Positions 2,702 to 51,475 of a stretch of 64,000 nt of DNA are shown in pieces; the first letter of the stretch is position 1, and each line of letters starts with the position of its first letter. This DNA comes from Methanobrevibacter sp. YE315. Lineage in GTDB: Archaea; Methanobacteriota; Methanobacteria; Methanobacteriales; Methanobacteriaceae. The DNA lies in the NCBI RefSeq assembly GCF_001548675.1, contig NZ_CP010834.1:1-64000 (forward strand). Direction: 5' to 3'. The position numbers and the translations under genes are program-made. The notes under the pieces are model-generated. The model searched no databases, was not told the DNA's origin, and saw only the letters and a program-made list of their open reading frames with translations.

Positions 2702-5700
2702 AATTCAGTGTTAGTAACAGTCACAAGATAAGCAATACTATCATCATACTCAACACTGAAACCAGGAACAGGAATCTCACCAATACTATAATTGATCACA
2801 CTACCATCAACATCATACCTAAGTAAATCAACGAAAGTGTAATTCCAATTATTAGACTCATTCAAAGTAATAGAACGAACCAAAACAGTACCATTCATTA
2901 ACCTAACAGTAACATTTACCGGCCTATTACCAGTAGCATTATTACCGTCAATCCATACTTTAACAACAGTGAAATTAACCAACTCAGTGTTAGTAACAGT
3001 CACAAGATAAGCAATACTATCATCATACTCAACACTGAAACCAGGAACAGGAATCTCACCAATACTATAATTGATCACACTACCATCAACATCATACCTA
3101 AGTAAATCAACGAAAGTGTAATTCCAATTATTAGACTCATTCAAAGTAATAGAACGAACCAAAACAGTACCATTCATTAACCTAACAGTAACATTTACCG
3201 GCCTATTACCAGTAGCATTATTACCATCAATCCATACTTTAACAACAGTGAAATTAACCAACTCAGTGTTAGTAACAGTCACAAGATAAGCAATACTATC
3301 ATCATACTCAACACTGAAACCAGGAACAGGAATCTCACCAATACTATAATTGATCACACTACCATCAACATCATACCTAAGTAAATCAACGAAAGTGTAA
3401 TTCCAATTATTAGACTCATTCAAAGTAATAGAACGAACCAAAACAGTACCATTCATTAACCTAACAGTAACATTTACCGGCCTATTACCAGTAGCATTAT
3501 TACCATCATTCCATACTTTAACAACAGTGAAATTAACCAACTCAGTGTTAGTAACAGTCACAAGATAAGCAATACTATCATCATACTCAACACTGAAACC
3601 AGGAACAGGAATCTCACCAATACTATAATTAATTACACTACCATCAACATCATACCTAAGTAAATCAACGAAAGTGTAATTCCAATTATTAGACTCATTC
3701 AAAGTAATAGAACGAACCAAAACAGTACCATTCATTAACCTAACAGTAACATTTACCGGCCTATTACCAGTAGCATTATTACCATCAATCCATACTTTAA
3801 CAACAGTGAAATTAACCAACTCAGTGTTAGTAACAGTCACAAGATAAGCAATACTATCATCATACTCAACACTGAAACCAGGAACAGGAATCTCACCAAT
3901 ACTATAATTGATCACACTACCATCAACATCATACCTAAGTAAATCAACGAAAGTGTAATTCCAATTATTAGACTCATTCAAAGTAATAGAACGAACCAAA
4001 ACAGTACCATTCATTAACCTAACAGTAACATTTACCGGCCTATTACCAGTAGCATTATTACCATCATTCCATACTTTAACAACAGTGAAATTAACCAACT
4101 CAGTGTTAGTAACAGTCACAAGATAAGCAATACTATCATCATACTCAACACTGAAACCAGGAACAGGAATCTCACCAATACTATAATTAATTACACTACC
4201 ATCAACATCATACCTAAGTAAATCAACGAAAGTGTAATTCCAATTATTAGACTCATTCAAAGTAATAGAACGAACCAAAACAGTACCATTCATTAACCTA
4301 ACAGTAACATTTACCGGCCTATTACCAGTAGCATTATTACCATCATTCCATACTTTAACAACAGTGAAATTAACCAACTCAGTGTTAGTAACAGTCACAA
4401 GATAAGCAATACTATCATCATACTCAACACTGAAACCAGGAACAGGAATCTCACCAATACTATAATTGATTACACTACCATCAACATCATACCTAAGTAA
4501 ATCAACGAAAGTGTAATTCCAATTATTAGACTCATTCAAAGTAATAGAACGAACCAAAACAGTACCATTCATTAACCTAACAGTAACATTTACCGGCCTA
4601 TTACCAGTAGCATTATTACCATCATTCCATACTTTAACAACAGTGAAATTAACCAACTCAGTGTTAGTAACAGTCACAAGATAAGCAATACTATCATCAT
4701 ACTCAACACTGAAACCAGGAACAGGAATCTCACCAATACTATAATTAATTACACTACCATCAACATCATACCTAAGTAAATCAACGAAAGTGTAATTCCA
4801 ATTATTAGACTCATTCAAAGTAATAGAACGAACCAAAACAGTACCATTCATTAACCTAACAGTAACATTTACCGGCCTATTACCAGTAGCATTATTACCA
4901 TCATTCCATACTTTAACAACAGTGAAATTAACCAACTCAGTGTTAGTAACAGTCACAAGATAAGCAATACTATCATCATACTCAACACTGAAACCAGGAA
5001 CAGGAATCTCACCAATACTATAATTGATTACACTACCATCAACATCATACCTAAGTAAATCAACGAAAGTGTAATTCCAATTATTAGACTCATTCAAAGT
5101 AATAGAACGAACCAAAACAGTACCATTCATTAACCTAACAGTAACATTTACCGGCCTATTACCAGTAGCATTATTACCATCATTCCATACTTTAACAACA
5201 GTGAAATTAACCAACTCAGTGTTAGTAACAGTCACAAGATAAGCAATACTATCATCATACTCAACACTGAAACCAGGAACAGGAATCTCACCAATACTAT
5301 AATTGATCACACTACCATCAACATCATACCTAAGTAAATCAACGAAAGTGTAATTCCAATTATTAGACTCATTCAAAGTAATAGAACGAACCAAAACAGT
5401 ACCATTCATTAACCTAACAGTAACATTTACCGGCCTATTACCAGTAGCATTATTACCATCATTCCATACTTTAACAACAGTGAAATTAACCAACTCAGTG
5501 TTAGTAACAGTCACAAGATAAGCAATACTATCATCATACTCAACACTGAAACCAGGAACAGGAATCTCACCAATACTATAATTGATCACACTACCATCAA
5601 CATCATACCTAAGTAAATCAACGAAAGTGTAATTCCAATTATTAGACTCATTCAAAGTAATAGAACGAACCAAAACAGTACCATTCATTAACCTAACAGT

Positions 5701-8700
5701 AACATTTACCGGCCTATTACCAGTAGCATTATTACCATCATTCCATACTTTAACAACAGTGAAATTAACCAACTCAGTGTTAGTAACAGTCACAAGATAA
5801 GCAATACTATCATCATACTCAACACTGAAACCAGGAACAGGAATCTCACCAATACTATAATTAATTACACTACCATCAACATCATACCTAAGTAAATCAA
5901 CGAAAGTGTAATTCCAATTATTAGACTCATTCAAAGTAATAGAACGAACCAAAACAGTACCATTCATTAACCTAACAGTAACATTTACCGGCCTATTACC
6001 AGTAGCATTATTACCATCATTCCATACTTTAACAACAGTGAAATTAACCAATTCAGTATTCACAATAGTCCAATTATAAGCAGTACTATTACTAATCGCA
6101 ACAGAGTAACCAGGAACAGTTAACTCTTCGAAAGAATACTTAATCGCGGTACCATTATCATGGAACACAGTTAAATTATAGAAAGTATGCATCCAATTAT
6201 TAGTGAAATTCAAAATAGCACTACCAACTGCTTGACCATCAGCTAACAAGGTAACATTAATGCTAGGCGGCCTTCTGCCAGTAGTATTATTTCCATCATT
6301 CCACTCTTTGATAACAGTAAGATTTGTAACTAATGTATTCTCAATGATTGTTAAACCAGGAGTTGAATTAGTAACGTTAACAATGTAATTGTTTAAAACA
6401 GTGGTCTCAATAACGGTGTAAATAATTCTTTGAGTACCGTTATAAACTTCTAAATCAGTGAATGTATGTGTCCAATTATTAGAAGCATCCAATCTAGTAC
6501 CATTAACTCTTACACCATCAGCAAGTAACTCAACATCAATAAACTCAGGTCTGGTATTATTAGTATTATTACCGTCATGCCAAATTTTAATAACTTCATA
6601 AGTTGTTGGAATAGCTTCGGTTACATTGCTTGCAGAGATATTTTTACCAATTGTTTCCCTAGTTGTTAGGTTAACAGTGTTGATTAAAGTACCAGTTGCT
6701 AAAGTTTTAAAGGTTATTGTGAAGTTTGCAGCTTCTTCAAAGCTTAAAGTGCCTAGATATCTTAAAACCATATTGGTAAAGTTAACAGTTTGACCATCAA
6801 CAGTCTGATTGAATGTTGTAACGCTGTCAATTACCCACATGTCGCTGTTTGTATGATTGATATATTCCAATTCAGAAGTTCTGAAAATCTCATTGATTGT
6901 GATATCATGTAAAATGGTATCGTTGGTATAATTACCGTCAGTATTGTTAAATGTATTTTTCACAACTACTACGAAATCAGAATATTCACCTAGGTACACG
7001 GTCTCATTCACGGTTAACTTATCAAGCAACTTATATGCATAAGTCTTATTGCTTGCAACTAAGATTCTTTCTTTAGTCTCTTTAGTTGTCAAGTTAACGG
7101 TGTTGATTAAAACACCTGTTGCCAAAGTCTTGAAGGTTATTGTAAAGTTAACTGATTCATTTACATGTATAATGCCGTCTTCATATTTTAAAACAATACA
7201 GGTATAATTGTCACCTTTGCTGTCAACAAACGTATCTGTACTCTCAATAATCCAGCTGCTATTGCTATGTCCTACATACTCCAATTCAGAAGTCTTGAAT
7301 ATTTCATAGATTGTAACATCGGTTAAGTTGGTAACGTTAGTGAAATCACCAGAAGTACTATTGAACGGATTAGTAACAACGACTATGAACTCGGCATTGT
7401 CGCCAACATAAACTGTCTCATTAACAGTCAACTTATCAAGCAATTCGTATACATCAGTAGTATTGTTTGCTGAATAAGGATCTCCAGTTTGATTAGAAGT
7501 TACATTAACAGTGTTGACTAAAGTACCGGTTGCTAAAGTCTTGAATTTTGCAGTAAAGTTAGCAGATTCTCCAGTTTCTAAGACACCATCATATATGAAT
7601 TCAATGCAAGTGTAATTAATGGTTTCTCCACCTACAGTTTCAGTAATATAATAGGTTCTGTTAATAATCCACTTATCCTTATTATCATAGTCAACAAATT
7701 CCAATTCAGCGGTTTTGAAGAAATCAGTTGCAGTAATATTGGTCATGTTGGTACTGTTACCATCGTCATCAACAAGAGTATTCCTTACAACAACAGTGAA
7801 CTCTACTTCATCACCAAGAAGTGATGATCCATTTAGAGACAATTTTTTGACTGTTGGAGGTTCAATTACTCTGAATTTAGTAACGTTTTGAATAGCTGTG
7901 TAATAGCTAGTTTCATTATAATATGCTTCTACATAATACACTCCTTTAGATAAACCAGTTAGTTTCAATGTTGTTTTTCCAAAGATGTCTGTCTTAACGA
8001 TTTCATCAGCTGAGAAATTTCCAACAACAGTACCATTTTCATCATAAACAACTATTCTAACAATTTGTTGGTTGTTTTCAAAAGGATATTGATAAATTTC
8101 ATCATAATCTGGTTCCAAGATTGGTGTAATATAGTCATCACGGGATACAGTTTTATCTATTTCTTGACCGTCTTCAGTGAAGAACGGATAAGTAATATTT
8201 TTCACCCAAACAGTAGAGCTGTTGTTATGAATACCGTTAGCTATGTTGTCCCCACCTTTGTGATAGACTATGATTGTTATGTTTTCATTTTCGTATATAG
8301 TAGGTATAATTCTGCATGTACAATTAGCTTCACATCCGCAGCCTTCATCTTCTGTTCCTCTTTTTCTGGTAGGACAATTGCATTGACCAGGGATGCAATT
8401 ACATGCACCATACTTTGTTGCAGAACTGTTATGGTCGTTAGCTATAGCTAACAATTGATAGGACCAAGCTTGGTTGTCATAGAATGTTGAATCATGTACA
8501 TGTAATGTAGAGGAAGTGACTGTTCCATCATATGCAACAAACTGATCTAAATAAATTGCAGATCCGTTTATTGCGGTATTCCAACTGAAATCACCTTGTA
8601 TGGTAGCATCTTGCACACCTGCTATGTAGAAAGCACCACCTAAACCTGAACTATTAGCGATGTCTCCTAATGCATGGTTATCTCTGAAGATTGAGTTAGT

Positions 8701-16262: not shown

Positions 16263-16288
16263 CAATATATTTATTAAAAAATATATTG
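16263..16288. terminator. Bidirectional AT-rich hairpin between convergent genes
   Basis: CAATATATTT pairs with AAATATATTG (10 bp) around a short A/T loop. The hairpin lies between the convergent radical SAM gene and the ParA-partner gene, with A/T tracts on both sides. It may terminate either transcript. Confidence 0.4.
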
Positions 16289-16295
16289 AATACTA

Positions 16296-16308
16296 TTTCA
16301 AGTGTAAA
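16296..16308 (+). promoter_or_regulatory. Isolated Orc1/Cdc6 box (mini-ORB)
   Basis: TTTCAAGTGTAAA is the exact reverse complement of the 13-bp Orc1/Cdc6 box TTTACACTTGAAA described for the Methanothermobacter origin. It lies 48 bp past the stop codon of the ParA-partner gene and about 25 kb from the origin cluster in this window. Binding is inferred from the match. Confidence 0.6.
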
Positions 16309-16356: not shown

Positions 16357-16878
16357 CTAGTAATCATCGAACAATGCCCATATGTCAGGGTATTTTTTGG
16401 CAACTGCCTCTTCGATTAAAACAGATGCTTCCTTTGAAATACTAAATTCCGGTTCGGTTTTTCTTAAGTATCTGAAAACGGCCGAAGATCTTGAAGACCA
16501 TAAGGTTATTCTTGGATTTTTATCTACAATCTCTTTAACCTCAGCTATATGTTCTTCTTGGATTTTGATTTCTTGTGGTGTTTGTACACTTTCTTCGCTG
16601 CCCTTATCGCTAGATAAGTCTTCGGGTTCGCTAGCATCCACCTGTACCTCTTCCTGCGGGTTAGGCTCTTCAGGGATACTGCTTCCATTGACATTCGAAA
16701 TATCTTCTTGATCATTTTCTTCCGCTACCTGTTCAAATATATTCTTTTCTTCTTCACCAGATTTCTCCTCTTCATTCAATAAATCTTCAAGAGATTGAGT
16801 AGAATTACTGTCGAAATCTTCATTATAATAATCAGGAATTAATGAATCCAATCCTTTTCCAAGACCTTTTCTAGCCAT
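16357..16878 (-). CDS. ParA partner with ParB-like N-terminal motif and acidic linker
   Basis: The 173-residue product starts with a basic MARKGLGKGLDSLIP segment (residues 5-15 GLGKGLDSLIP). This is very like the extreme N-terminus of bacterial ParB/Spo0J, where that segment contacts ParA and stimulates its ATPase. Residues 16-105 are a Glu/Asp/Ser-rich disordered linker. Residues about 110-173 appear folded, with a short strand PRITLW followed by two helices (SAVFRYLRKTEPEF and SISKEASVLIEEAVAKKY), an order reminiscent of ribbon-helix-helix domains. The ParB N-terminal nuclease-like fold and central HTH are absent. Its ATG shares one base with the parA stop (TAATG) and has GGAGG within the end of parA, so the two are translationally coupled. 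Its role as segregation adaptor is inferred. Confidence 0.7.
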   Translation of the reverse strand: MARKGLGKGLDSLIPDYYNEDFDSNSTQSLEDLLNEEEKSGEEEKNIFEQVAEENDQEDISNVNGSSIPEEPNPQEEVQVDASEPEDLSSDKGSEESVQTPQEIKIQEEHIAEVKEIVDKNPRITLWSSRSSAVFRYLRKTEPEFSISKEASVLIEEAVAKKYPDIWALFDDY

Positions 16879-17747
16879 TATTTACCTCCCATACTCCTTT
16901 CCAGATTTCTTTTAACCATCTTGAATTGGCTTTTTCCTTTTACATCTATGCTTTTTCTTGCTTCATTCAATTGAACGTTTTCGTCCCTTTGAATAATTTC
17001 CTTAGCTAATCTTAAATAAGCTTTGGTACCTGTACTTTCAGGATCATAAATCAAGCAAGGTTTTCCGAAACTAGGAGCTTCAGCTAATCTGATGTTTCTT
17101 GGAATGATTGTTTTAAATAATAAGTTTGATTCGCCAAAGTAACTTTTAAGTTCTTTGTGTACGTCTTTACTAAGCCTGGTTCTCTTATCAAATAGAGTAA
17201 GGAGAATTCCTTTGATTGGAGTGGGACTTCTAAGCCTTCTTTCAACTAATTTTATTGTATTAATCAAATCAGCTACACCTTCCAAAGCGTAATACTCAGC
17301 TTGGATAGGTATTAAAACACTATCTGAAGCTACTAATGCATTGACAGTAAGTACGCCTAATGAAGGAGGCAAATCAATGAATATGTAATCAAATAATGGT
17401 ACAACATCTTTAAGAGTTTCCTGTAACACAATATGATAATTTTCACGTCTAGAAAGCTCCATTCCAGCACCACTGAGGGATATATTACTTGGGATAATAA
17501 ATAAATTTTTAATAAACGTAGGAATTGTTGCTTTTTTTACATTAATATCCCCAATGAGAGCATCATATATTGTATTTTCTATTTTGGTTTTATCAATCCC
17601 AAAGCTGGTTGTTGCGTTAGCTTGAGGATCCATATCTACAACCAAAACAGATTTGCCCATTACGGCTAGGGATGTTGCAGTATTTACAACGGTTGTTGTT
17701 TTTCCACAGCCCCCTTTTTGATTCATCACTGCGATTACTTCACTCAT
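16878..17747 (-). CDS. parA: ParA/Soj family chromosome-partitioning ATPase
   Basis: The 289-residue ATPase has the deviant Walker A box QKGGCGKTT at residues 10-18 (signature Lys11 and P-loop Lys16), a Walker A' region (VVDMDPQANAT) and a Walker B segment (YIFIDLPPSLG), all typical of ParA/Soj rather than MinD: no amphipathic C-terminal helix is seen. A basic tail of about 30 residues (ending MVKRNLERSMGGK) could bind non-specific DNA. In ParA systems ATP-bound dimers coat the nucleoid and are released by a partner protein. The next gene encodes a candidate partner, and the region upstream is the 7-bp-phased array. A good SD (AAGGAGAATT) lies just before the ATG. Confidence 0.9.
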   Translation of the reverse strand: MSEVIAVMNQKGGCGKTTTVVNTATSLAVMGKSVLVVDMDPQANATTSFGIDKTKIENTIYDALIGDINVKKATIPTFIKNLFIIPSNISLSGAGMELSRRENYHIVLQETLKDVVPLFDYIFIDLPPSLGVLTVNALVASDSVLIPIQAEYYALEGVADLINTIKLVERRLRSPTPIKGILLTLFDKRTRLSKDVHKELKSYFGESNLLFKTIIPRNIRLAEAPSFGKPCLIYDPESTGTKAYLRLAKEIIQRDENVQLNEARKSIDVKGKSQFKMVKRNLERSMGGK

Positions 17748-28863: not shown

Positions 28864-30234
28864 ATGAACGTTATTGAAAAGTTAAACTCCATTAAAAGTG
28901 GAGAAATGACAGCTAAAGAAAACGTGGAAAGCTTCATTAAAGTTATTGATGAAAATAACGAAAGCATTAATGCATTTATTGAATTGAACTATGAAAATGC
29001 ATTAAAACAAGCAGAAGCTATTGACGAAAAAATAGCTAATGGTGAAGATGTTGGCGCTTTGGCTGGATTGGTATTTGGTATTAAAGCAAACATTAATGTT
29101 GAAGACTTAATAATTTCTGCAGCTTCAAAAACATTAGAAGATTATATAGGAAGCTACAATGCAACCGTTGTTAATGAAATATTGGCTGAAGATGGAATAA
29201 TCATCGGTATTTTGAATATGGATGAGTTTGCAGCAGGAAGTTCAACTGAAACTTCATACTACGGACCTACCCAAAACCCTGCAGCTATGGGAAGAATTCC
29301 TGGAGGATCCAGTGGAGGATGTGCAGCAGCAATCGCAGCTGAAATGTGTGACATTGCAATCGGATCAGATACCGGAGGATCCATCAGAAACCCTGCTTCA
29401 CATTGTGGCGTAGTAGGTTTCAAACCAACATACGGTGCCGTTTCAAGACAAGGACTTCTTGACTTATCAATGAGTCTAGACCAAATCGGACCGCTTGCAA
29501 ATGATGTGAGTGGAATTGCACTTGCATTAAACACAATTGCAAATTATGATGAAACCGAATGCACTACCTTAGACTGGGATAAGCCTGACTTTACTGAAGT
29601 ATTAGATGAAACATCCTTAGAAGGTATGAAAATAGCTGTATGTAAAGAGTTCATCGATGTTACTGATGAAGAAATCAACAAGACAGTCAACAAAGCTATC
29701 AGCAAGCTGGTGGATGCCGGAGCTGAACTTGTTGAAGTAAGCTTCGATTATATCGACTTATGTTTACCTACATACTACCTGATTAACTATGTAGAATTCT
29801 TCTCTGCAACCAGAAAATATGATGGAAGAGACTACGGATACAGAATTGAAGAAGTGTGTGGAGAGGAAGTGCTTAGAAGAATCAAAATAGGTTCCCACAT
29901 TGCAGAAGCTGAATTTAGTGGTAAATACTACAAACAAGCATTGAAAGCAAGATCAGTTATCAGAGCTGAAATCACTTCCATGCTTGAAAATGTGGATTTG
30001 ATTGTAGGACCAACCGTGCCTAAACTTCCTCACGAAATTGGTGCTGAATTAGAACCAATGGAAATGTATGCTTACGATATATTGACCGTAATAGCTAACC
30101 TTGCCGGAATTCCAGCAGCAAGCATTCCAGCAGGTGAAGTTGATGGCATTCCTGTAGGACTACAATTACAGGCTAAACCATTGGATGACTTAAAAATTGT
30201 TAAAGCTATGAGTGTTTTCGAAAACACTCAATAA
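28864..30234 (+). CDS. gatA: Asp-tRNA(Asn)/Glu-tRNA(Gln) amidotransferase subunit A
   Basis: The 456-residue amidase has the Ser-cisSer-Lys triad: Lys74 in FGIKANI, the Ser of GGSSGG near 148, and the nucleophile in GSDTGGSIR near 172, followed by CGVVGFKPTYGAVSR. Subunit A releases ammonia from glutamine or asparagine to amidate mischarged tRNA on GatB. In archaea GatABC serves mainly Asn-tRNA, with GatDE making Gln-tRNA. Neither gatB nor gatC is next to it. It is slightly short for a GatA. An SD-like GGTG precedes the ATG by 7 bases. Confidence 0.9.
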   Translation: MNVIEKLNSIKSGEMTAKENVESFIKVIDENNESINAFIELNYENALKQAEAIDEKIANGEDVGALAGLVFGIKANINVEDLIISAASKTLEDYIGSYNATVVNEILAEDGIIIGILNMDEFAAGSSTETSYYGPTQNPAAMGRIPGGSSGGCAAAIAAEMCDIAIGSDTGGSIRNPASHCGVVGFKPTYGAVSRQGLLDLSMSLDQIGPLANDVSGIALALNTIANYDETECTTLDWDKPDFTEVLDETSLEGMKIAVCKEFIDVTDEEINKTVNKAISKLVDAGAELVEVSFDYIDLCLPTYYLINYVEFFSATRKYDGRDYGYRIEEVCGEEVLRRIKIGSHIAEAEFSGKYYKQALKARSVIRAEITSMLENVDLIVGPTVPKLPHEIGAELEPMEMYAYDILTVIANLAGIPAASIPAGEVDGIPVGLQLQAKPLDDLKIVKAMSVFENTQ

Positions 30235-30238
30235 ACTC

Positions 30239-30258
30239 TTTTTTTTACAAACTTTTTT
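30239..30258 (+). terminator. Oligo-T terminator after gatA
   Basis: Runs of eight and six T follow the gatA stop codon within 25 bases, a typical archaeal termination signal. The second run overlaps an Orc1 box. Confidence 0.5.
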
Positions 30259-30268
30259 ACACTTGAAA
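30256..30268 (-). promoter_or_regulatory. Isolated Orc1/Cdc6 box (mini-ORB)
   Basis: TTTACACTTGAAA matches the 13-bp Methanothermobacter Orc1/Cdc6 box exactly. It lies between gatA and the next gene, about 11 kb from the origin cluster. Its orientation is opposite to the copy at 16296. Confidence 0.6.
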
Positions 30269-30326
30269 TACACCTCTAAAATTTAATAATAATTAAAATA
30301 CAATAGAATATCAAGAGGTTATTTTT

Positions 30327-31823
30327 ATGACAAGAATTGGACTTGCATATGTCAGCGGTGCTGTTCCGGGATTTGAGGATTTCGGAAATTTGCCGACAGA
30401 CATCGTTAAAGAAAATGGACTTGTTGATGGATTGAAAGCTAGTGACCAATTAGATGCCTTGATTATTCCTGGCGGAACCTTGATTGAGTCAAATGACATT
30501 AACATGGATTTAAACAAAGAAATCAAAAAAATGGCTGGGGATGGAAAGCCTATTATTGGAATATGTGCCGGCTTTCAGCTATTGTCAAACCAGATAGACA
30601 TCGGAAGAAAATCACCTGTGCCAATTGTAAAGGACGGTCTTGGGATAATTGACGTTAATTTCTCACCATTGATTACAAGCGATAGAGTAAAAGCAAAAGT
30701 CTTTGACAATTCCTTTTTAGTCAAAAACCAGACAGAAGATGTCGACGGTTTCCATACCCACACATATGGTAAGGTGGAAGGAGATGCAAAACCACTATTC
30801 TATTCACAAGTCCAAAGAATGAATTACGGTGATGTCAACAAAGAAGCCGAATATAACATCTTTTCCGGTGCATGCAATGATGACGGCAATGTCATCGGTA
30901 CGATGATTCATGGAATCCTTGACGAAAACCCGATTCTTGTAAATAATCTATTAGAACAAATAGACGCTGAAAATATTGATGAAATCTACAATAAAAATAT
31001 CGAAGTCAAAAAATATCTGCAGAGCGAAGTCGGAATCAACAATAACATAAAGGTACCTCAATTAGAAAATAAACCAAAAAAACCAAAATATCTGATGATT
31101 GGAAGCAACGGATCAGATTCCGGTAAAACATTCATCATGACAGGACTTGCAGGGGCAATAAGAAAAAGAGGATATAAGGTGGCCCTTTTAAAAGTGGGTC
31201 CTGATGTCCGTGATATTATACCGGGATTATACTTGACAAAAGGAAAAATGGAAGATTTCGCATCAATAAAGATTGGACATCTGGGATGGGCTGACATCGA
31301 ATCTACAATAAAGACACTCAACTCTTCAGACTATGATATCGTTCTGATTGAAGGGGTCATGAGCGTATTTACCGGCCTTTTAAATGAGAAGGTTCCGTTT
31401 TCAGCAGCAGAAATAGCTATGTCATCAAATATTCCGATGATATTGGCGTCAGGCGTTAACAAAGGCGGAATAGAATCCGCAGCAATTGACCTCGTTTCCC
31501 ATGCGAATATGCTTGAAAAATTCGGAGTGTCTGTAGAAGCCATCCTGCTGAATAAGGTATACAATGAAAATATATTCGATAATGTAGTTCCATACATCAA
31601 AAACAACACAAACGTTAAGAAAGTGTTAAAGCTTCCTAAGCTAAAATCAGCCGATATGAGAGGATTCATTCCTGAAGTCGAAATAAGATACGAACTGTTT
31701 ACAAGCCATGCAATGGATCTGATTGAAAACAACCTAAACATTGATGAAATAATAGATATGGCTCGTGAAGTTGAATTCGAAAAAATCTACTCATTTGAAG
31801 AAATCAAAAGCAAGGTGATATAA
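30327..31823 (+). CDS. CobB/CobQ-like amidotransferase-ATPase with permuted domain order
   Basis: The 498-residue protein carries a class I glutamine amidotransferase domain first (residues 1-230, with catalytic Cys80 in GICAGF and a His in IHGILDE near 196) and a CobQ/BioD-type ATPase second (P-loop GSDSGKT near 260, and LKVGPDVRD). Cobyrinic and cobyric acid synthases (CbiA/CfbB, CbiP) have the ATPase first. The domain pair implies ATP-dependent amidation of a carboxylate with glutamine nitrogen, but the substrate is not evident; cobamide, F430 or another cofactor are options. Its stop shares one base with the ATG of the next gene. Confidence 0.75.
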   Translation: MTRIGLAYVSGAVPGFEDFGNLPTDIVKENGLVDGLKASDQLDALIIPGGTLIESNDINMDLNKEIKKMAGDGKPIIGICAGFQLLSNQIDIGRKSPVPIVKDGLGIIDVNFSPLITSDRVKAKVFDNSFLVKNQTEDVDGFHTHTYGKVEGDAKPLFYSQVQRMNYGDVNKEAEYNIFSGACNDDGNVIGTMIHGILDENPILVNNLLEQIDAENIDEIYNKNIEVKKYLQSEVGINNNIKVPQLENKPKKPKYLMIGSNGSDSGKTFIMTGLAGAIRKRGYKVALLKVGPDVRDIIPGLYLTKGKMEDFASIKIGHLGWADIESTIKTLNSSDYDIVLIEGVMSVFTGLLNEKVPFSAAEIAMSSNIPMILASGVNKGGIESAAIDLVSHANMLEKFGVSVEAILLNKVYNENIFDNVVPYIKNNTNVKKVLKLPKLKSADMRGFIPEVEIRYELFTSHAMDLIENNLNIDEIIDMAREVEFEKIYSFEEIKSKVI

Positions 31824-38777: not shown

Positions 38778-39713
38778 TTGATTAGCATTTTTAGATTAAA
38801 AAACATAATTTCAATAAAAGACTTTGAAAGGGAAGATATTGAATATATCTTAAACGAAGCATCAAAATTAGAAAACATCGCAAAATCAAAAGAAACCTGT
38901 GAAGAATTAAAAGGAAAAATTCTAGGATTAATGTTTTTTGAACCTTCAACAAGGACAAAACTGTCTTTTGAAACAGCCATTAAACGTTTGGGCGGAGACG
39001 GTATCGGATTTGAAAACAGCGGATCAAGCTCTGTTTCTAAAGGAGAAAGCATTGCCGATACTGCAAAAATGTTTGAAGGCTACTGTGATGCCCTGGTAAT
39101 AAGACACGAACTCGAAGGCGTGTCAAAATTCATATCCGGCATTGTAGATGTTCCTGTAATTAATGCCGGTGACGGTGCAGGCCAACACCCAACACAGACA
39201 CTGCTCGACTTATACACAATAAAAAATGAAATAGGATCAATTGATAATCTAAAAATCGCTTTAATCGGAGACCTTAAATTCGGCCGTACAGTTCATTCCC
39301 TATCAAATGCTTTAAGCTTATTCAATAATGTGAAAATCTATTTAGTATCTCCAAAAGAACTAAAAATGCCTCAGGAAATCTTAATCGATTTGAATAAAAC
39401 AAACATTGAATATGAAGAAGTAGACAATATCGAAAGCATTATTGATGACGTCGATGTATTATATGTCACAAGAATACAGAAGGAACGTTTCCCGGATATC
39501 GACGATTATATGAAAATAAAAGGCGCGTATGTAATCAACAAAAAAATGCTTGAAGGAAAAGACCTGATTGTGATGCATCCATTACCTAGAATCGATGAAA
39601 TAGCCGGTGACGTTGATGACACAAAATACAATAAGTATTTCACTCAGGCAGCAAATGCCGTTCCTGTCAGGATGGCTATTCTAAAAACATTAATTAAAAA
39701 CAACCCTAAATAG
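38778..39713 (+). CDS. pyrB: Aspartate carbamoyltransferase catalytic subunit
   Basis: The enzyme makes carbamoyl-aspartate for pyrimidines. [13 protein letters not shown] holds the carbamoyl phosphate loop (STRTKLSF); [28 protein letters not shown] and [10 protein letters not shown] complete the active site. No ATG lies at the conserved start. The frame runs back to an ATG at 38700 inside hisG, which would add 26 non-homologous residues. The better starts are TTG at 38778 (311 residues) or ATT at 38787 (308 residues, nine bases after GAGGG); TTG is annotated. The regulatory subunit PyrI is not adjacent. Confidence 0.9.
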
Positions 39714-39728
39714 GGGAAAGGGTTGTTT
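39698..39728. terminator. Hairpin overlapping the convergent pyrB and cdc6 ends
   Basis: AAACAACCCT (39698-39707) pairs perfectly with AGGGTTGTTT (39719-39728) around an 11-base loop. On the minus strand a T-rich TTTTTAATTAAT follows, so it looks like a terminator for cdc6 placed within the overlapping 3' ends of both genes. Confidence 0.6.
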
Positions 39729-40869
39729 CAAGTAATTCTTCATCACACTGAAGCTTAATAATATTGGTTCTTCCTTTTCCACGTCCACGTGAAATTGTAT
39801 TGGTGGAAATGATACCCAACATTTCCAATTCATTGATAAAATCAAATATTCTTCTGTAAGTTACAGCATCCTTTTTAGAAACTTCTTTATACGCATCATA
39901 TAATTTACCGGAAGTTATCTCCTCATCCTGTTTTGTTAATGTTAAAATGGCTTCTAAAACCCTTTGTTGCTGAAGCGGCAATGTAGATATGATTTCAATG
40001 ACCTTATTATGCTCGATTTTATCTTTTGCTCTCCTAACATGATCTCCAGTTACGACATTGGAATCTTCATCGAAAGCCAATTCGCCTGCGTTTTTAAGTA
40101 AATCAAGAGCATAACGAGCATCGCCCTCTTCTTTTGCAGCCATGGCTGAACACAAAGGAATCACATCACTTTCCAAAACATCATCATTAAAGGACAACTG
40201 AGCCCTTTCCAATAAAATATCTGATAGCTGGTCTGCTCCATAAGGTGGAAATACAATTTCTTTATCGTTTAAACTGCTTGTAACTCTTGACTTGATCAAA
40301 TTCTTAAAGTCCAAATAATTACTGATACATAAAACTGATACGTTTTCTGTTCTGGTAAGTGTATATAATATTCCATCACCGTCTTTATCAAGCAAAATAT
40401 CAATTTCGTCCAAAATAACAATCAAATGCAGTTTTCTGCCGAATGCATTGGTTTTGAAAATATCCCTGAAGGTGTTTACAACTTCACCTTTGGTCCAACC
40501 GCGGTTTGGAACGTCACGGCCTAACTTATTACACAATTCAGCGAGTACCTGATATTCTGTTGTGTAATCTGTGCATCTGATGTATTCAACTTTTACAAAA
40601 ACATTTTTTCTGCGTGCTATGTCAATAAGCTGTTCGCGAGCAAATTTTGATGCTGCAGTTTTTCCAGTTCCTGTCTTACCGTAAAGAGTCACGTTTGATG
40701 GAGTCACATTACTTAAGACATCCACCCAATTTTTAGCTATCAACTTTATCTGTTCTTCCCTGTGGACTAATTTATCAGGTAAATATCTATGATCTAATGG
40801 AGCTTTATCTTTGAAAATAATGGGGTTAGTAGTATCAGTTTTTTCTAATTCATCGAAAATGTTTTCCAT
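39706..40869 (-). CDS. cdc6: Orc1/Cdc6 replication initiator
   Basis: The 387-residue AAA+ protein has Walker A GKTGTGKT at residues 64-71, Walker [10 protein letters not shown] near 148, sensor 1 in VLCISN, and an arginine-containing sensor 2 ([10 protein letters not shown]). The C-terminal winged helix (about 300-385) includes a basic wing ([10 protein letters not shown]). Orc1/Cdc6 binds origin boxes and helps load MCM. The upstream intergenic region carries a cluster of its expected boxes. The start is the ATG at 40869 with an AAGGTG SD six bases away; a GTG at 40878 is less likely. It converges with pyrB with an eight-base overlap. Confidence 0.95.
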
Positions 40870-41507
40870 GTATTTCACCTTATAAATTTTATGAAAAAAT
40901 TAGTAGTATAATTTCCAGTGTTAATAATATAAAATGTATCATAAATAAAGGTTTTTATTACAATTTCATGAAAAAGTATGAAAAATGACAAAAAAGTAAA
41001 AAATTAAATTGATTATAATAGTTTAAATGAAGTAAATATTTATCAGAATTTGTTTAAAAGAAAAATAAAATATTATGAATCATAAAATCAATTTTGCAAT
41101 CATTTAATTAACTTAAATTTTAAATATGAAACAGTACTATTTCAAATATAACAGAACAATTTCAAGTGTAACTTTAAGGAAAAAATGATTATGATTCGTC
41201 CTCAAAATCAAGATTTAAGACAATTTTGTTGAAAAAAAAATATTACATAACATAGAGACAGAGACATGCATTTCAAGTGTAAACACTTTCATGCGAAAAA
41301 CAAAATTGAAGAGATGTATTTCAAGTGTAATGAAAATGAAATGTTGATAAAAACAAATTAAATTAATAATAAATTAATAATAATCCTTCAATTCAAAAAA
41401 AAGTGAAAAATAAAAGAGATAAATTTCAAATGTTTACAGTTGAAATATACCCCTTCAGTCTTAATATATCTGCAAAATTGTTATACTTGAAATGGACCTC
41501 TCCCTCT
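40870..41507. other. oriC: Predicted chromosomal replication origin (oriC) with Orc1 box cluster
   Basis: This gene-free 638-bp stretch lies directly upstream of orc1/cdc6. It contains boxes related to TTTACACTTGAAA: on one strand at 41140 (10/13 match), 41160 (12/13), 41271 (13/13), 41319 (12/13) and 41424 (10/13), and in the opposite orientation at 41433 (12/13) and 41480 (11/13). Inverted box groups flanking AT-rich DNA are typical of archaeal origins. The extremely AT-rich segment 40880-41130 is the best candidate for duplex unwinding. The 13-bp box is the one mapped for Orc1/Cdc6 binding in Methanothermobacter. No ORF is supported here. Confidence 0.88.
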
Positions 41508-41990
41508 CTAAACGAACATGCTGTTTTCGTTTGAAGGCTGTTGAGGTTTTGAAAATCCACCAAATTTTTTGTCGATTAACCAGATACAATGTAATTTTGA
41601 CTTGAAAACTCTTTTCAATGTTCTAATAAAGTTATCTTTGGTCAATCCATCTTCAAAAATTTGATCAGTGATGATAAACTGCTGTAATAAATCCTGATTT
41701 ATTTGAAGTTCATAGTCAACCAAGAACTTGTTTAATCCGAAGTTCAAATCAAGAATAAAATCTTTTTTGACTTTTGGGCTTGCTTCTGTCATCAATTCCA
41801 AATGTTCAGGGGAAACCTGTGTAGCGCAAGCAACAATGATACAATCTTTTCCTTTTGGTTTTACAACATCCATTATATTGTCTTTTGGGAACTCAACGAT
41901 AAAATGAAAATCAGCGTTTTCATCATATTTCTTTTCCCTTAAGTAACTTTCATCAAGTAACCATTCTTTAACTTTATCTTCAATGTTCAT
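41508..41990 (-). CDS. Conserved hypothetical protein, resembles DUF2299
   Basis: The 160-residue protein appears to be a compact alpha/beta fold: a strand-rich first half (FHFIVEFP, CIIVACATQVSPEHLELM) and a helical second half ending in strands (LHCIWLIDKKFGG). It resembles DUF2299 proteins of archaea, but I am not certain of the family. No catalytic motif, Cys cluster or membrane segment is seen. Function unknown. It borders the origin on the side opposite to cdc6, with its 3' end next to the last Orc1 box, so replication timing or supercoiling could affect it. Confidence 0.55.
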   Translation of the reverse strand: MNIEDKVKEWLLDESYLREKKYDENADFHFIVEFPKDNIMDVVKPKGKDCIIVACATQVSPEHLELMTEASPKVKKDFILDLNFGLNKFLVDYELQINQDLLQQFIITDQIFEDGLTKDNFIRTLKRVFKSKLHCIWLIDKKFGGFSKPQQPSNENSMFV

Positions 41991-43094: not shown

Positions 43095-44107
43095 AAATTG
43101 CTATCATTTCTGTTTCAAAAAAAGGTCAGGATTTGGCTTTAAAACTAAAGGAAAAATTGGATCATGATTCAACAGTCATAAGGACAGACCTGTATCATAA
43201 AAATGTTAAAAAGTATTTTCCGATTTTATTTCAGGAATATGATTCTATAATTGCAATAATGGCATCAGGAATTCTAATCAGGTCAATCGCACCATTGATT
43301 GAATCAAAGGCTACAGATCCAGCAATATTGAATATTGATGATAATGGAAATTTCGTTATTTCAACCTTGTCAGGTCATTTGGGAGGTGCAAACAAGCTGA
43401 CAGAAAAGATTGCAAAGCTGATTGATGCAACACCCGTCATAACCACATCCACTGATGTAAATAAAAAATTAGGCATCGACGTAATTGCAAAGGATTTGTA
43501 TTTGTCGATAGACAACACCAGTGAAATCCTGTTTTTCAACAAGGCCATTCTTGAAGGAAAGGAAATTTCATTTGAGGTAAATCCTAACAAAAATTTTGAT
43601 TATTTATATGAATACCTGAACAGTGTTACACTTGAAATAGATGTTTCTATTGAATTTTCATCTAAAGTAAATACAAATGAAATTCATGTCAAACACGACA
43701 GCCATAAAATTATTTTGAAGGAAAGGGAAATAGTTGTTGGAATCGGCTGCAGGCGAGGAAAGGAATGTGAAAAGATTTATTCTGCTTTTAAAAAATCAAT
43801 TGATGACTTGAATATTCATGAATCCAGAGTCAACATGCTGACATCCGCTGAAATAAAAAAAGACGAAAAAGGCATATTGGAACTTTCAAAACATTTAGAT
43901 AAACCGGTTTATTTTGTTGAATTGGATAAGATTAAATTGTTTGAATCCAAAGATATTCAAAAATCAGAATTCGTAAAATCAAAATTTGGAATTTATGGCG
44001 TTTGTGAGCCTTCAGCGTTAATTACAGCAGGTTTCGATTCAGAATTGATATATAAGAAAACATCTTATGATGGTGTTACAATAGCTGTTGCTATCTCAAA
44101 AGATTAA
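43091..44107 (+). CDS. cbiG: Cobalt-precorrin-5A hydrolase
   Basis: The 338-residue protein removes the C20-derived two-carbon fragment as acetaldehyde during anaerobic cobamide ring contraction. The N-terminal half has IIAIMASGILIRSIAPLI and LSGHLGGANKLTEKIA. The C-terminal CbiG domain begins at about 220 with VVGIGCRRGKECE and ends with VCEPSALITAG and TIAVA. Translation is probably coupled to cbiB. cbiH, the methyltransferase acting next to it in the pathway, is encoded 3.5 kb downstream. Confidence 0.9.
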   Translation: MKIAIISVSKKGQDLALKLKEKLDHDSTVIRTDLYHKNVKKYFPILFQEYDSIIAIMASGILIRSIAPLIESKATDPAILNIDDNGNFVISTLSGHLGGANKLTEKIAKLIDATPVITTSTDVNKKLGIDVIAKDLYLSIDNTSEILFFNKAILEGKEISFEVNPNKNFDYLYEYLNSVTLEIDVSIEFSSKVNTNEIHVKHDSHKIILKEREIVVGIGCRRGKECEKIYSAFKKSIDDLNIHESRVNMLTSAEIKKDEKGILELSKHLDKPVYFVELDKIKLFESKDIQKSEFVKSKFGIYGVCEPSALITAGFDSELIYKKTSYDGVTIAVAISKD

Positions 44108-49349: not shown

Positions 49350-50612
49350 GTGAAAGATCAACAGAAGAAGATTCGCAGTTCACTATCTACTCGAATTTTA
49401 TCTGATTTTTATTCAGAGCATGATTACATAATCAAAGAAGGGTTGATTGCTCTTTTAATTTGTGCTACAGGAGATTTAATAGCTGGTATTATACTCGGTA
49501 AAATGACATTTTTCCTTGAAACATTTCCGGGTTTATTGGTTGTCATTCCTGGAGCTATTGGTATGAGAGGAAATATTTTTGGATCATTTGCTTCAAGATT
49601 ATCCACCAGTTTACATATTGGTTTAATATCCCCAGAATTTGAATTTTCAGATGATTTAAACTACAATATCTTTTCCTCATTTGTATTGACACTGGTTTTA
49701 TCAATATTTTTAGCAATTGTAGCGAAAGCATTCTGTATTTTATTAAATTACCAATCAATAAGCCTAATGGATTTCATATTGATTTGTACATTCGCGGGCA
49801 TAATTTCCAATTTAATAATGCTTCCGATAACCATGTTCGTTTCATTTAAAAGTTTTGAGCATGGCTGGGATCCGGATAATATTACAAGCCCAATAATTGC
49901 AGCCTTTGGTGATTTGTTTACTTTGCCGGCAATTATAGCATCAATTTTTATTTTAAAAGCAATGAATGTAAATATCCTCGTCAAATACAGCATTCTTGTT
50001 GTAATTATAATAGCTGTTTTTGCAGGTTTTGTTTATTGCTACAGGTTATCCGATGAAACCAAAACAATTTTAAAGCAATCCACTCCTACCTTGCTTTTAT
50101 GCTCCTTTTTAGGAGGTTCAGCAGGCGGAATATTAAACAGTTCAGTCGAAACATTGCTTACCAATCCTAGCTTGCTTACCTTATTGCCATTGTTTTCAGG
50201 CGAATGCGGAAGCCTAATCAGTATTTTAGGTGCAAGATTGTCTTCAGCCCTTCATTCAGGTTTGGTTGAACCGTTATCAAGACCTAAAGGAGAGGCGCTT
50301 CATAATTTTGCTATTTGTTTCATATTAGCTATTGTTGTTTTCCCATTCATTGGAATAATAGCCGAATCATCATCCATTGCTTTTGGAGTGCTTGGCGTGG
50401 GCTTTGATAAGATTATTGAAATCAGCACATTATCAGGACTTATATTAGTTACAATAATGGTTTTCCTTGTCTATTATATCTCAATAACTTCATATAATCA
50501 TAATTTAGACCCTGACAATATTGTGATTCCAGTTTCAACAAGCGTTACAGATTCAATTTCCAGCCTAACTTTGATAAGCGTGTCATTGCTTATTTTAGGT
50601 GTTTTGATTTAA
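49350..50612 (+). CDS. mgtE: MgtE/SLC41-type divalent cation transporter with duplicated membrane domain
   Basis: The 420-residue protein has two copies of the MgtE membrane domain. The first has PGLLVVIPGAIGMRGNIFGSFASRLST, seen in parts, and HGWDPDNITSPIIAAFGD. The second has LFSGECGSLISILGARLSSALHSG and LDPDNIVIPVSTSVTDSIS. The DPDNI motifs line the Mg2+ pore in this family. The cytoplasmic N and CBS domains of bacterial MgtE are missing; the upstream PhoU/TrkA-C protein may take the regulatory role. GTG at 49350 follows an AGGTAGTGA SD-like segment and is preferred over GTG at 49341. Its end overlaps the convergent pilin-like gene by four bases. Confidence 0.85.
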   Translation: MKDQQKKIRSSLSTRILSDFYSEHDYIIKEGLIALLICATGDLIAGIILGKMTFFLETFPGLLVVIPGAIGMRGNIFGSFASRLSTSLHIGLISPEFEFSDDLNYNIFSSFVLTLVLSIFLAIVAKAFCILLNYQSISLMDFILICTFAGIISNLIMLPITMFVSFKSFEHGWDPDNITSPIIAAFGDLFTLPAIIASIFILKAMNVNILVKYSILVVIIIAVFAGFVYCYRLSDETKTILKQSTPTLLLCSFLGGSAGGILNSSVETLLTNPSLLTLLPLFSGECGSLISILGARLSSALHSGLVEPLSRPKGEALHNFAICFILAIVVFPFIGIIAESSSIAFGVLGVGFDKIIEISTLSGLILVTIMVFLVYYISITSYNHNLDPDNIVIPVSTSVTDSISSLTLISVSLLILGVLI

Positions 50613-51475
50613 TAACAACATTTAAAGATGAATTCACATTCGTTTGTTCTAAAATAATCGTAATTTAAGCAATCCCTATTGAAATTTTTCGGAACGGAAA
50701 TCATCACGGCTTTAGGTTTTTCCTTATCAAGATGAACAAAGACTATCGCGCTTGTATCATTGTAAAAGCGAATCTTGTCATTCAGCGGAATAACATTTGA
50801 AATTGCTGTCTGCCAGTCCTTCAGGTCGTATTCGCTTGTCGTATCCACAATGTATTTCAAATCGTATTTTTCGCTATCGTCAATTATCAGATAGTAGTTT
50901 GAATTTTTAAGATTTCCCTTAAATACCTTAAAATAATTGCAGCTGTGGGAGTCTTGTTGATGGTTTCGATTGCATTTTCCATCATTTTCGAAATCCTTCA
51001 AGACATATTTTTTGTAAAAGTCACATTTCACCAATCTGTTTACAACGAATACATTGTTTGAGTCCATGTTCGAACCAATTTTTACACTTGAAATGGTACT
51101 CTTTTTTGGAGACAATTCCATTGATGATTTGATTTTTGAGTTGAATATTTTTTCAGTTATTAACTTATTGTAGTTTCTTTTCAACGCATTGAATTTTTCA
51201 TAGGATACGGAGTTTGGAACGGTTTCTCCCTCTTCATTTATGATTGCAAGGCCTGGCGTTCCCTTTTCATATTCATTCCATTTTTCCGGATTTCCGGGAT
51301 TGTTGATTAGATTGTCAACCGCTTCGTTTATTAACATTTCAACGTTTTCATTTTCCTGCGTTTTGATTAGATTTTCGGTTGTATTTTCAACTGATGCCAA
51401 AAGCACACCCAAAATTAATAATATCACTGCAAGAACAATTGTGATTTCGATTGTACTGCTTCCCCTGCTGTCCAT
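50609..51475 (-). CDS. Pilin-like secreted protein, second of a pair
   Basis: The 288-residue protein begins MDSRGSSTIEITIVLAVILLILG in sense: a short polar leader, Gly, then Ser-Ser-Thr-Ile-Glu before a single hydrophobic helix, resembling archaeal type IV pilins and pseudopilins with Glu at position 5 of the mature chain. The rest is extracellular with several Cys (CDFYKK, CNRNHQQDSHSCNYF, CLNYDYF, CEFIFKCCY) that may form disulfides. Its ATG directly follows the stop of the upstream gene. No pilus ATPase or peptidase gene is nearby, so the pilus role is inferred. Confidence 0.6.
   Translation of the reverse strand: MDSRGSSTIEITIVLAVILLILGVLLASVENTTENLIKTQENENVEMLINEAVDNLINNPGNPEKWNEYEKGTPGLAIINEEGETVPNSVSYEKFNALKRNYNKLITEKIFNSKIKSSMELSPKKSTISSVKIGSNMDSNNVFVVNRLVKCDFYKKYVLKDFENDGKCNRNHQQDSHSCNYFKVFKGNLKNSNYYLIIDDSEKYDLKYIVDTTSEYDLKDWQTAISNVIPLNDKIRFYNDTSAIVFVHLDKEKPKAVMISVPKNFNRDCLNYDYFRTNECEFIFKCCY
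51081..51093 (-). promoter_or_regulatory. Isolated Orc1/Cdc6 box inside a coding region
   Basis: TTTACACTTGAAA matches the Orc1/Cdc6 box exactly and lies within the pilin-like gene, about 9.6 kb from the origin cluster. Because it is inside a coding sequence it may be fortuitous, but an exact 13-base match is unlikely by chance. Confidence 0.5.

Follow-up and report, generated by a model that had tools for sequence, protein, structure and literature searches.

Methanobrevibacter includes the main methane producers of gut and rumen, and to our knowledge the way in which double firing is prevented in single-origin archaea is poorly known. In bacteria, clusters of DnaA boxes such as E. coli datA are strong, early-replicating initiator sites located outside oriC. 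For M. ruminantium M1, the genome description (PMC2812497) assigns oriC to the region upstream of cdc6-1 by GC skew and homology, and also reports a second gene, cdc6-2. In Haloarcula hispanica the ORB cluster oriC2D represses oriC2, likely via initiator titration (PMC3936714, where datA is cited as well), and in Sulfolobus SegB sites cluster close to segAB and oriC1 (PMC12284271).

The window analysed here is the first 64 kb (64,000 nucleotides) of the single-contig genome of Methanobrevibacter sp. YE315 (2,273,296 bp, 99.96% complete). The 629-bp gap between orc1 and a DUF2299 gene is, by its sequence, its conservation and the GC skew, almost certainly the single main oriC of the chromosome. 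Taken alone, this oriC is an ordinary one of the Methanothermobacter type, already published for M. ruminantium. The following features were assigned:

39706-40878, minus strand: orc1/cdc6 (Orc1-1) initiator gene (TIGR02928, 401.7 bits; Cdc6 lid and C-terminal winged-helix domains)
40879-41507, no strand: oriC intergenic region (box cluster compared with shuffles, skew inflection, conserved in 19 genus genomes)
40903-40924, minus strand: weak orc1-proximal box TTAACACTGGAAA, kept in most relatives (matrix score 16.5)
41151-41172, minus strand: Orc1 box (23.0)
41262-41283, minus strand: Orc1 box of 22 bp, with the exact 13-mer as its core (29.9)
41310-41331, minus strand: Orc1 box (29.2)
41332-41414, no strand: stretch of about 90% AT flanked by inverted boxes, a candidate DNA-unwinding element (AT windows; analogy with ORB-DUE-ORB origins)
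41415-41436, minus strand: weak Orc1 box that shares bases with the inverted box following it (21.4)
41433-41454, plus strand: Orc1 box (27.5)
41480-41501, plus strand: Orc1 box (26.9)
41508-41990, minus strand: DUF2299 gene bordering oriC (PF10061)

The core 13-mer, TTTACACTTGAAA, recurs in the gap 1, 4, 6 and 10 times at up to 0, 1, 2 and 3 mismatches, while 1000 dinucleotide shuffles of the gap gave means of 0, 0.013, 0.17 and 1.4 and maxima of 0, 1, 2 and 6, respectively. The exact copy is found at 41271 (minus strand), copies with one mismatch at 41160 (minus), 41319 (minus) and 41433 (plus), those with two at 40912 (minus) and 41480 (plus), and those with three at 41119, 41140, 41287 and 41424. 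The first-pass annotation had described at least seven copies in opposite orientations, one exact and three with one mismatch, beside a very AT-rich stretch upstream of orc1/cdc6, and this description proved accurate throughout: both strands are used around a 90% AT stretch (approximately 41329-41398) in a gap of 79% AT, and the neighbouring gene encodes a full Orc1/Cdc6. The closest solved chains to this protein are 2qby and 2v1u (2qby_A, E 2e-69), and its true start may be the ATG at 40869 rather than the annotated GTG. The box positions are nearly constant in 19 genus genomes, at about +290, +400, +450, +555 and +605 from the orc1 start. From this arrangement we infer that Orc1 binds the inverted boxes around the AT-rich element.

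GC skew was followed through 40 stretches of 20 kb and the window. In this sample positive values predominate between 41 kb and about 1.15 Mb, with negative exceptions (e.g. at 220, 400 and 500 kb) in stretches with mainly minus-strand genes; between 1.18 Mb and, past the contig start, 20 kb the skew is negative nearly throughout. When plus- and minus-strand genes were taken apart, their third-position (GC3) skew reversed like the total skew; the switch is therefore not merely a matter of gene orientation. The second sign change, at about 1.15–1.18 Mb, coincides with the antipode of 41.2 kb (1.178 Mb), which fits one main bidirectional origin, and no second skew origin was seen in the sampled stretches and the window. 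A skew extremum elsewhere, with no inflection at 41 kb, had been named beforehand as evidence against the origin; the sampled skew flips near 41 kb and at the antipode. Within the window the cumulative skew reaches its lowest points at 27-28 kb and at 41-42 kb, so skew alone locates the origin to about 20 kb, and the exact place is fixed by the boxes. The window also contains a very strong GC skew of -0.41 across the 3 kb from 3001 to 6000, probably one long biased gene.

Alignment of 127 oriC boxes of the genus extended the conservation to position 21, as TTTACACTTGAAAT-NN-A-Y-CTCT. The functional word, as read from this alignment, is 22 bp and longer than the 13-mer. The exact 13-mer has nine copies in the genome against none for the reversed control, which makes it too common near the origin. 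The oriC call of the first-pass annotation is supported by the boxes, the skew and the adjacent orc1, but it was incomplete: the marked interval is oriC, while the 22-bp word was missed and it recurs outside, at 16287, 30256 and 51081 and beyond the window. These outlying sites, here named satellites S1 to S4, the array A2 and their neighbours are as follows:

16287-16308, minus strand: S1, a weaker box with exact core and poor extension, 48 bp past the segB stop (score 19.5)
16357-16878, minus strand: segB-like gene with a ParB-type N-terminus (RKGLGKGL) and a SegB-like C-terminus (SegB 7duv, E 2.8e-6)
16878-17747, minus strand: segA/parA-like ATPase gene (PF13614, E 3e-62)
28864-30234, plus strand: gatA, left neighbour of S2 (TIGR00132)
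30256-30277, plus strand: S2, isolated Orc1 box TTTACACTTGAAATACACCTCT
30327-31823, plus strand: cobyrinic acid a,c-diamide synthase-like gene, starting about 71 bp past S2 (NF004921, 603 bits)
50609-51475, minus strand: pilin-like gene (288 aa, no family match) carrying S3 in the codons ATT TCA AGT GTA AAA
51081-51102, plus strand: S3, isolated Orc1 box inside the pilin-like coding sequence, antisense to it and 10.2 kb away on the other side
77816: S4, Orc1 box at +36 kb; in 23 of 28 loci it follows the stop codon of an rfbB-like gene by 0-5 bp
271540-272060 (about 271.7 kb): A2, tandem array of Orc1 boxes, all on one strand, about 3.4 kb from orc1-2

A position weight matrix trained solely on the 127 oriC boxes scored S2 at 30.5, S4 at 30.4, A2 at 29.1 and S3 at 27.1 (p from 3e-12 to 7e-4), compared with an oriC mean of 24.0. 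No site in the window scores higher than S2, which attains the maximum of the matrix. A scan of 800 kb, a biased sample since some of its 20-kb stretches had been picked for box matches, returned seven sites above 21 and none with reversed controls. Nineteen genus genomes were also oriented on orc1, and in the 712 kb of their flanks only nine other boxes with at most one mismatch were present. Strong, conserved boxes outside the origin, as initiator titration would need, do therefore exist, strength meaning matrix score only. S1 to S4 are single boxes; only A2 is clustered, in a subset of the genus. Some other matches were recorded as well. Full-length extended boxes lie far out on the right arm at 263210, 586896 and 624444, and a one-mismatch box in cbiG (43625-43637, score 26.3) has a counterpart in just one of the relatives read, G007. 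Lone cores without extension at 171291, 566090 and 1283620 were taken as chance. Matches to TTACACTCGAAA at 162, 229-231 and 1694 kb were rejected as Orc1 boxes, since they are repeats that precede the genes of a paralogous secreted-protein family. An TATATAAAGTTTTTCGAGTGTAAGTGCC element precedes paralogous small secreted-protein genes there (162127, 162881, 229328-231006 and 1694468), and its likeness to the box is by chance.

S2 is situated between gatA and the cobyrinate-synthase-like gene, 10.6 kb from the orc1 start. A plus-strand box is present at this place in all 19 oriented genomes, at -9.9 to -14.6 kb from orc1. Among genus loci it is kept in 28 of 29, a count biased toward close relatives by best-first listing of the loci, and drawn, like all genus counts here, from mostly draft assemblies of phylogenetically linked genomes which are not independent trials. 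The footprint in these loci is a clean 22 bp, with variation almost confined to two spacer bases, and it lies 63-73 bp before the start codon. In G015 another gene follows S2 and the box is retained. In the sister genus G057 a gatA-side box stands just 3.7 kb from oriC, so the distance of S2 is partly a matter of synteny, and an exact rule of plus or minus 10 kb was discarded in view of this box and of the 9.9-14.6 kb range. In other genera of the family, boxes occur elsewhere near their origins.

S3 was found in 16 of 17 testable oriented genus genomes, at +10.1 to +11.5 kb, the one without it being G015, and at no more than one mismatch in all 30 orthologues of the pilin-like gene; five loci of named Methanobrevibacter carry both oriC and the S3 box. 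Serine can be encoded by six codons. In the 30 orthologues the codons ATT TCA AGT GTA AAA are 97-100% identical, where the expected codon homozygosity is 0.21-0.60. By contrast, the conserved residues on either side, P142, I152 and G153, vary synonymously, with homozygosities of 0.34, 0.38 and 0.45. Of 816 13-nt windows in this set, S3 is the most conserved; its CTCT extension is conserved at 0.83-1.00 and the spacer bases are free, as in oriC. Fixed codons beside varying neighbours point to selection on the DNA, and the conservation of S3 is explained by a putative DNA-binding site, not by protein constraint. In several deeper-clade genomes (loci L174 and L175), and also in G009 and G014, the pilin-like gene has a second box, in opposite orientation, near its 5' end.

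S1 is located in the convergent gap 3' of segB, and it is present with at most one mismatch in 20 of 29 genus loci. The adjoining segAB-like operon is separated from oriC by about 24 kb. The segB-like product has a variable acidic linker between its two termini and no Pfam match. A2 lies upstream of a gerW-like operon and contains, depending on the genome, two to six tandem boxes with a period of about 53 bp in 79% AT sequence, a spacing equal to that of the Methanothermobacter-like oriC boxes in G025. The nearby orc1-2 (275178-276239) encodes a protein 27% identical to Orc1. The boxes of A2 are interleaved with the palindrome ACTTATAAGT, and four 43-bp repeats bearing ACTTATAAGT follow; our guess is that Orc1-2 reads this palindrome. 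Boxes at a spacing of 52-54 bp occur in 24 genomes, of which at least one (G032) was rejected as a case of A2: its contig also holds its S1/S2 genes, so the array is probably oriC. S1 and A2 are both absent from the deep clade, for A2 in the two genomes read.

The satellites are very probably real, selected sites that Orc1 reads, as far as comparison of sequences can tell. In the explanation proposed here, Orc1 would bind a few conserved, isolated, near-consensus 22-bp sites in addition to the oriC boxes. Those at -25, -10, +10 and +36 kb would be among the first tens of kb to be replicated, and further ones form the array by orc1-2. The forks would duplicate the strong satellites soon after firing. 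The duplicated satellites could then pull Orc1 off the oriC boxes, which are weaker, or keep the origin within a domain of bridged Orc1 and DNA, and either the withdrawal or the bridging would limit re-initiation, in the manner of E. coli datA or Haloarcula oriC2D. The small capacity of single boxes compared with about seven boxes in oriC speaks against titration, and the spacing of roughly 10 kb may merely mirror synteny. That the job of the satellites is control of initiation is put forward tentatively, at a little under an even chance, and we place the same slightly doubtful value on a constellation of such sites around the origin, single and of high affinity for Orc1, with one of them embedded in codons; its duplication would act as an initiation timer or scaffold. 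For the explanation as a whole, oriC and satellite control together, the balance appears even. The constellation would be a distributed origin-control system new to archaea, and possibly also a segregation landmark near oriC.

The presence of segAB about 24 kb from oriC, with S1 next to it, makes segregation a serious rival, in which Orc1 at oriC and the satellites would be bridged, or the sites would be recognised by SegAB, as a parS-like, centromere-like set. The layout does resemble bacterial parS, with few single near-origin sites, some in genes and one beside segB; the gene product resembles SegB, and the Sulfolobus SegB sites near segAB and oriC1 (PMC12284271) offer a precedent. The boxes do gather around the origin, and at segAB there is only the weak S1. 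Against this reading, the published SegB palindrome TCTAGASTCTAGA is a different word that is absent at the satellites and not enriched here, and S1 is the weakest of the sites and the least conserved. G004 keeps S2-S4 and yielded no segB match. The satellite motif is moreover that of oriC, which Methanothermobacter Orc1 is said to bind according to Capaldi and Berger in 2004. These points leave the segregation reading unlikely. If Orc1 were instead a transcription regulator with the satellites as operators of neighbouring genes, the constant place of S2 before a start codon and that of A2 upstream of an operon would be expected, but S3 sits antisense in the middle of a gene, S4 just past a stop and S1 in a convergent gap, and S2 in G015 has outlasted a change of downstream gene. 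Such differing contexts (promoter side, mid-gene, just past a stop) make a single transcriptional role unlikely, and the operator reading is given quite a low probability.

The tandem boxes of A2 near orc1-2, with their Methanothermobacter-like period and AT-rich sequence, could also mark a second, weak or dormant origin, the satellites then being remnants of mobile origins. The sampled stretches have no skew inflection at about 271 kb, the boxes of A2 point one way without an inverted layout, and the array is missing in the deep-clade genomes mentioned above, so that this origin is considered improbable. It is very improbable indeed that only oriC matters and that the satellites are chance matches or hitchhiking relics of synteny: gene order near oriC is conserved, and the lone 13-mers at 566090, 1283620 and 43625 do look like chance or local events, yet the codon constraint at S3, the 22-bp footprint of S2 with its free spacer and the zero counts of the reversed controls all oppose such a reading.

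The oriC of YE315 resembles that of Methanothermobacter thermautotrophicus, with its 13-bp mini-ORBs beside cdc6-1, in the core TTTACACTTGAAA, the gene neighbour and the inverted clusters around AT-rich DNA. This layout is also seen in the relatives G020 and G025, two Methanothermobacter-like outgroups at the level of the order, but their oriC boxes are 50-53 bp apart and no satellites were found within 20 kb of them, in contrast to the spacing of 110/48/105/47 and the satellites of YE315. M. ruminantium M1 has the same origin assignment, and the part of its description available mentions no box arrangement outside the origin (PMC2812497). The open literature searched contained no report of satellite boxes, which is weak evidence as key Methanothermobacter and Pyrococcus papers lie outside it. 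The satellites share with bacterial parS and archaeal SegB sites their small number, their position near the origin, their tolerance in genes and the vicinity of par/seg genes, and differ from them in the word and in the reader (PMC12284271). Among tested systems the closest precedent is oriC2D of Haloarcula hispanica, where initiator boxes also stand outside the origin; its 11 ORBs, however, lie directly downstream of the initiator gene, while YE315 has single boxes 10-36 kb off and a remote array (PMC3936714).

The satellites point to an undescribed control layer around an archaeal origin, and they narrow the targets for mutation to a few precisely known bases; one of the sites is guarded in a gene by codon choice. 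E. coli datA differs from them in its initiator, its clustered sites and its IHF-dependent hydrolysis of DnaA-ATP, and we know of no hydrolysis step of this kind for Orc1. Like datA, the satellites would be strong initiator sites outside oriC with early replication, and they show that in an archaeon such sites can face strong selection, in parallel to the DnaA sites outside bacterial oriC.
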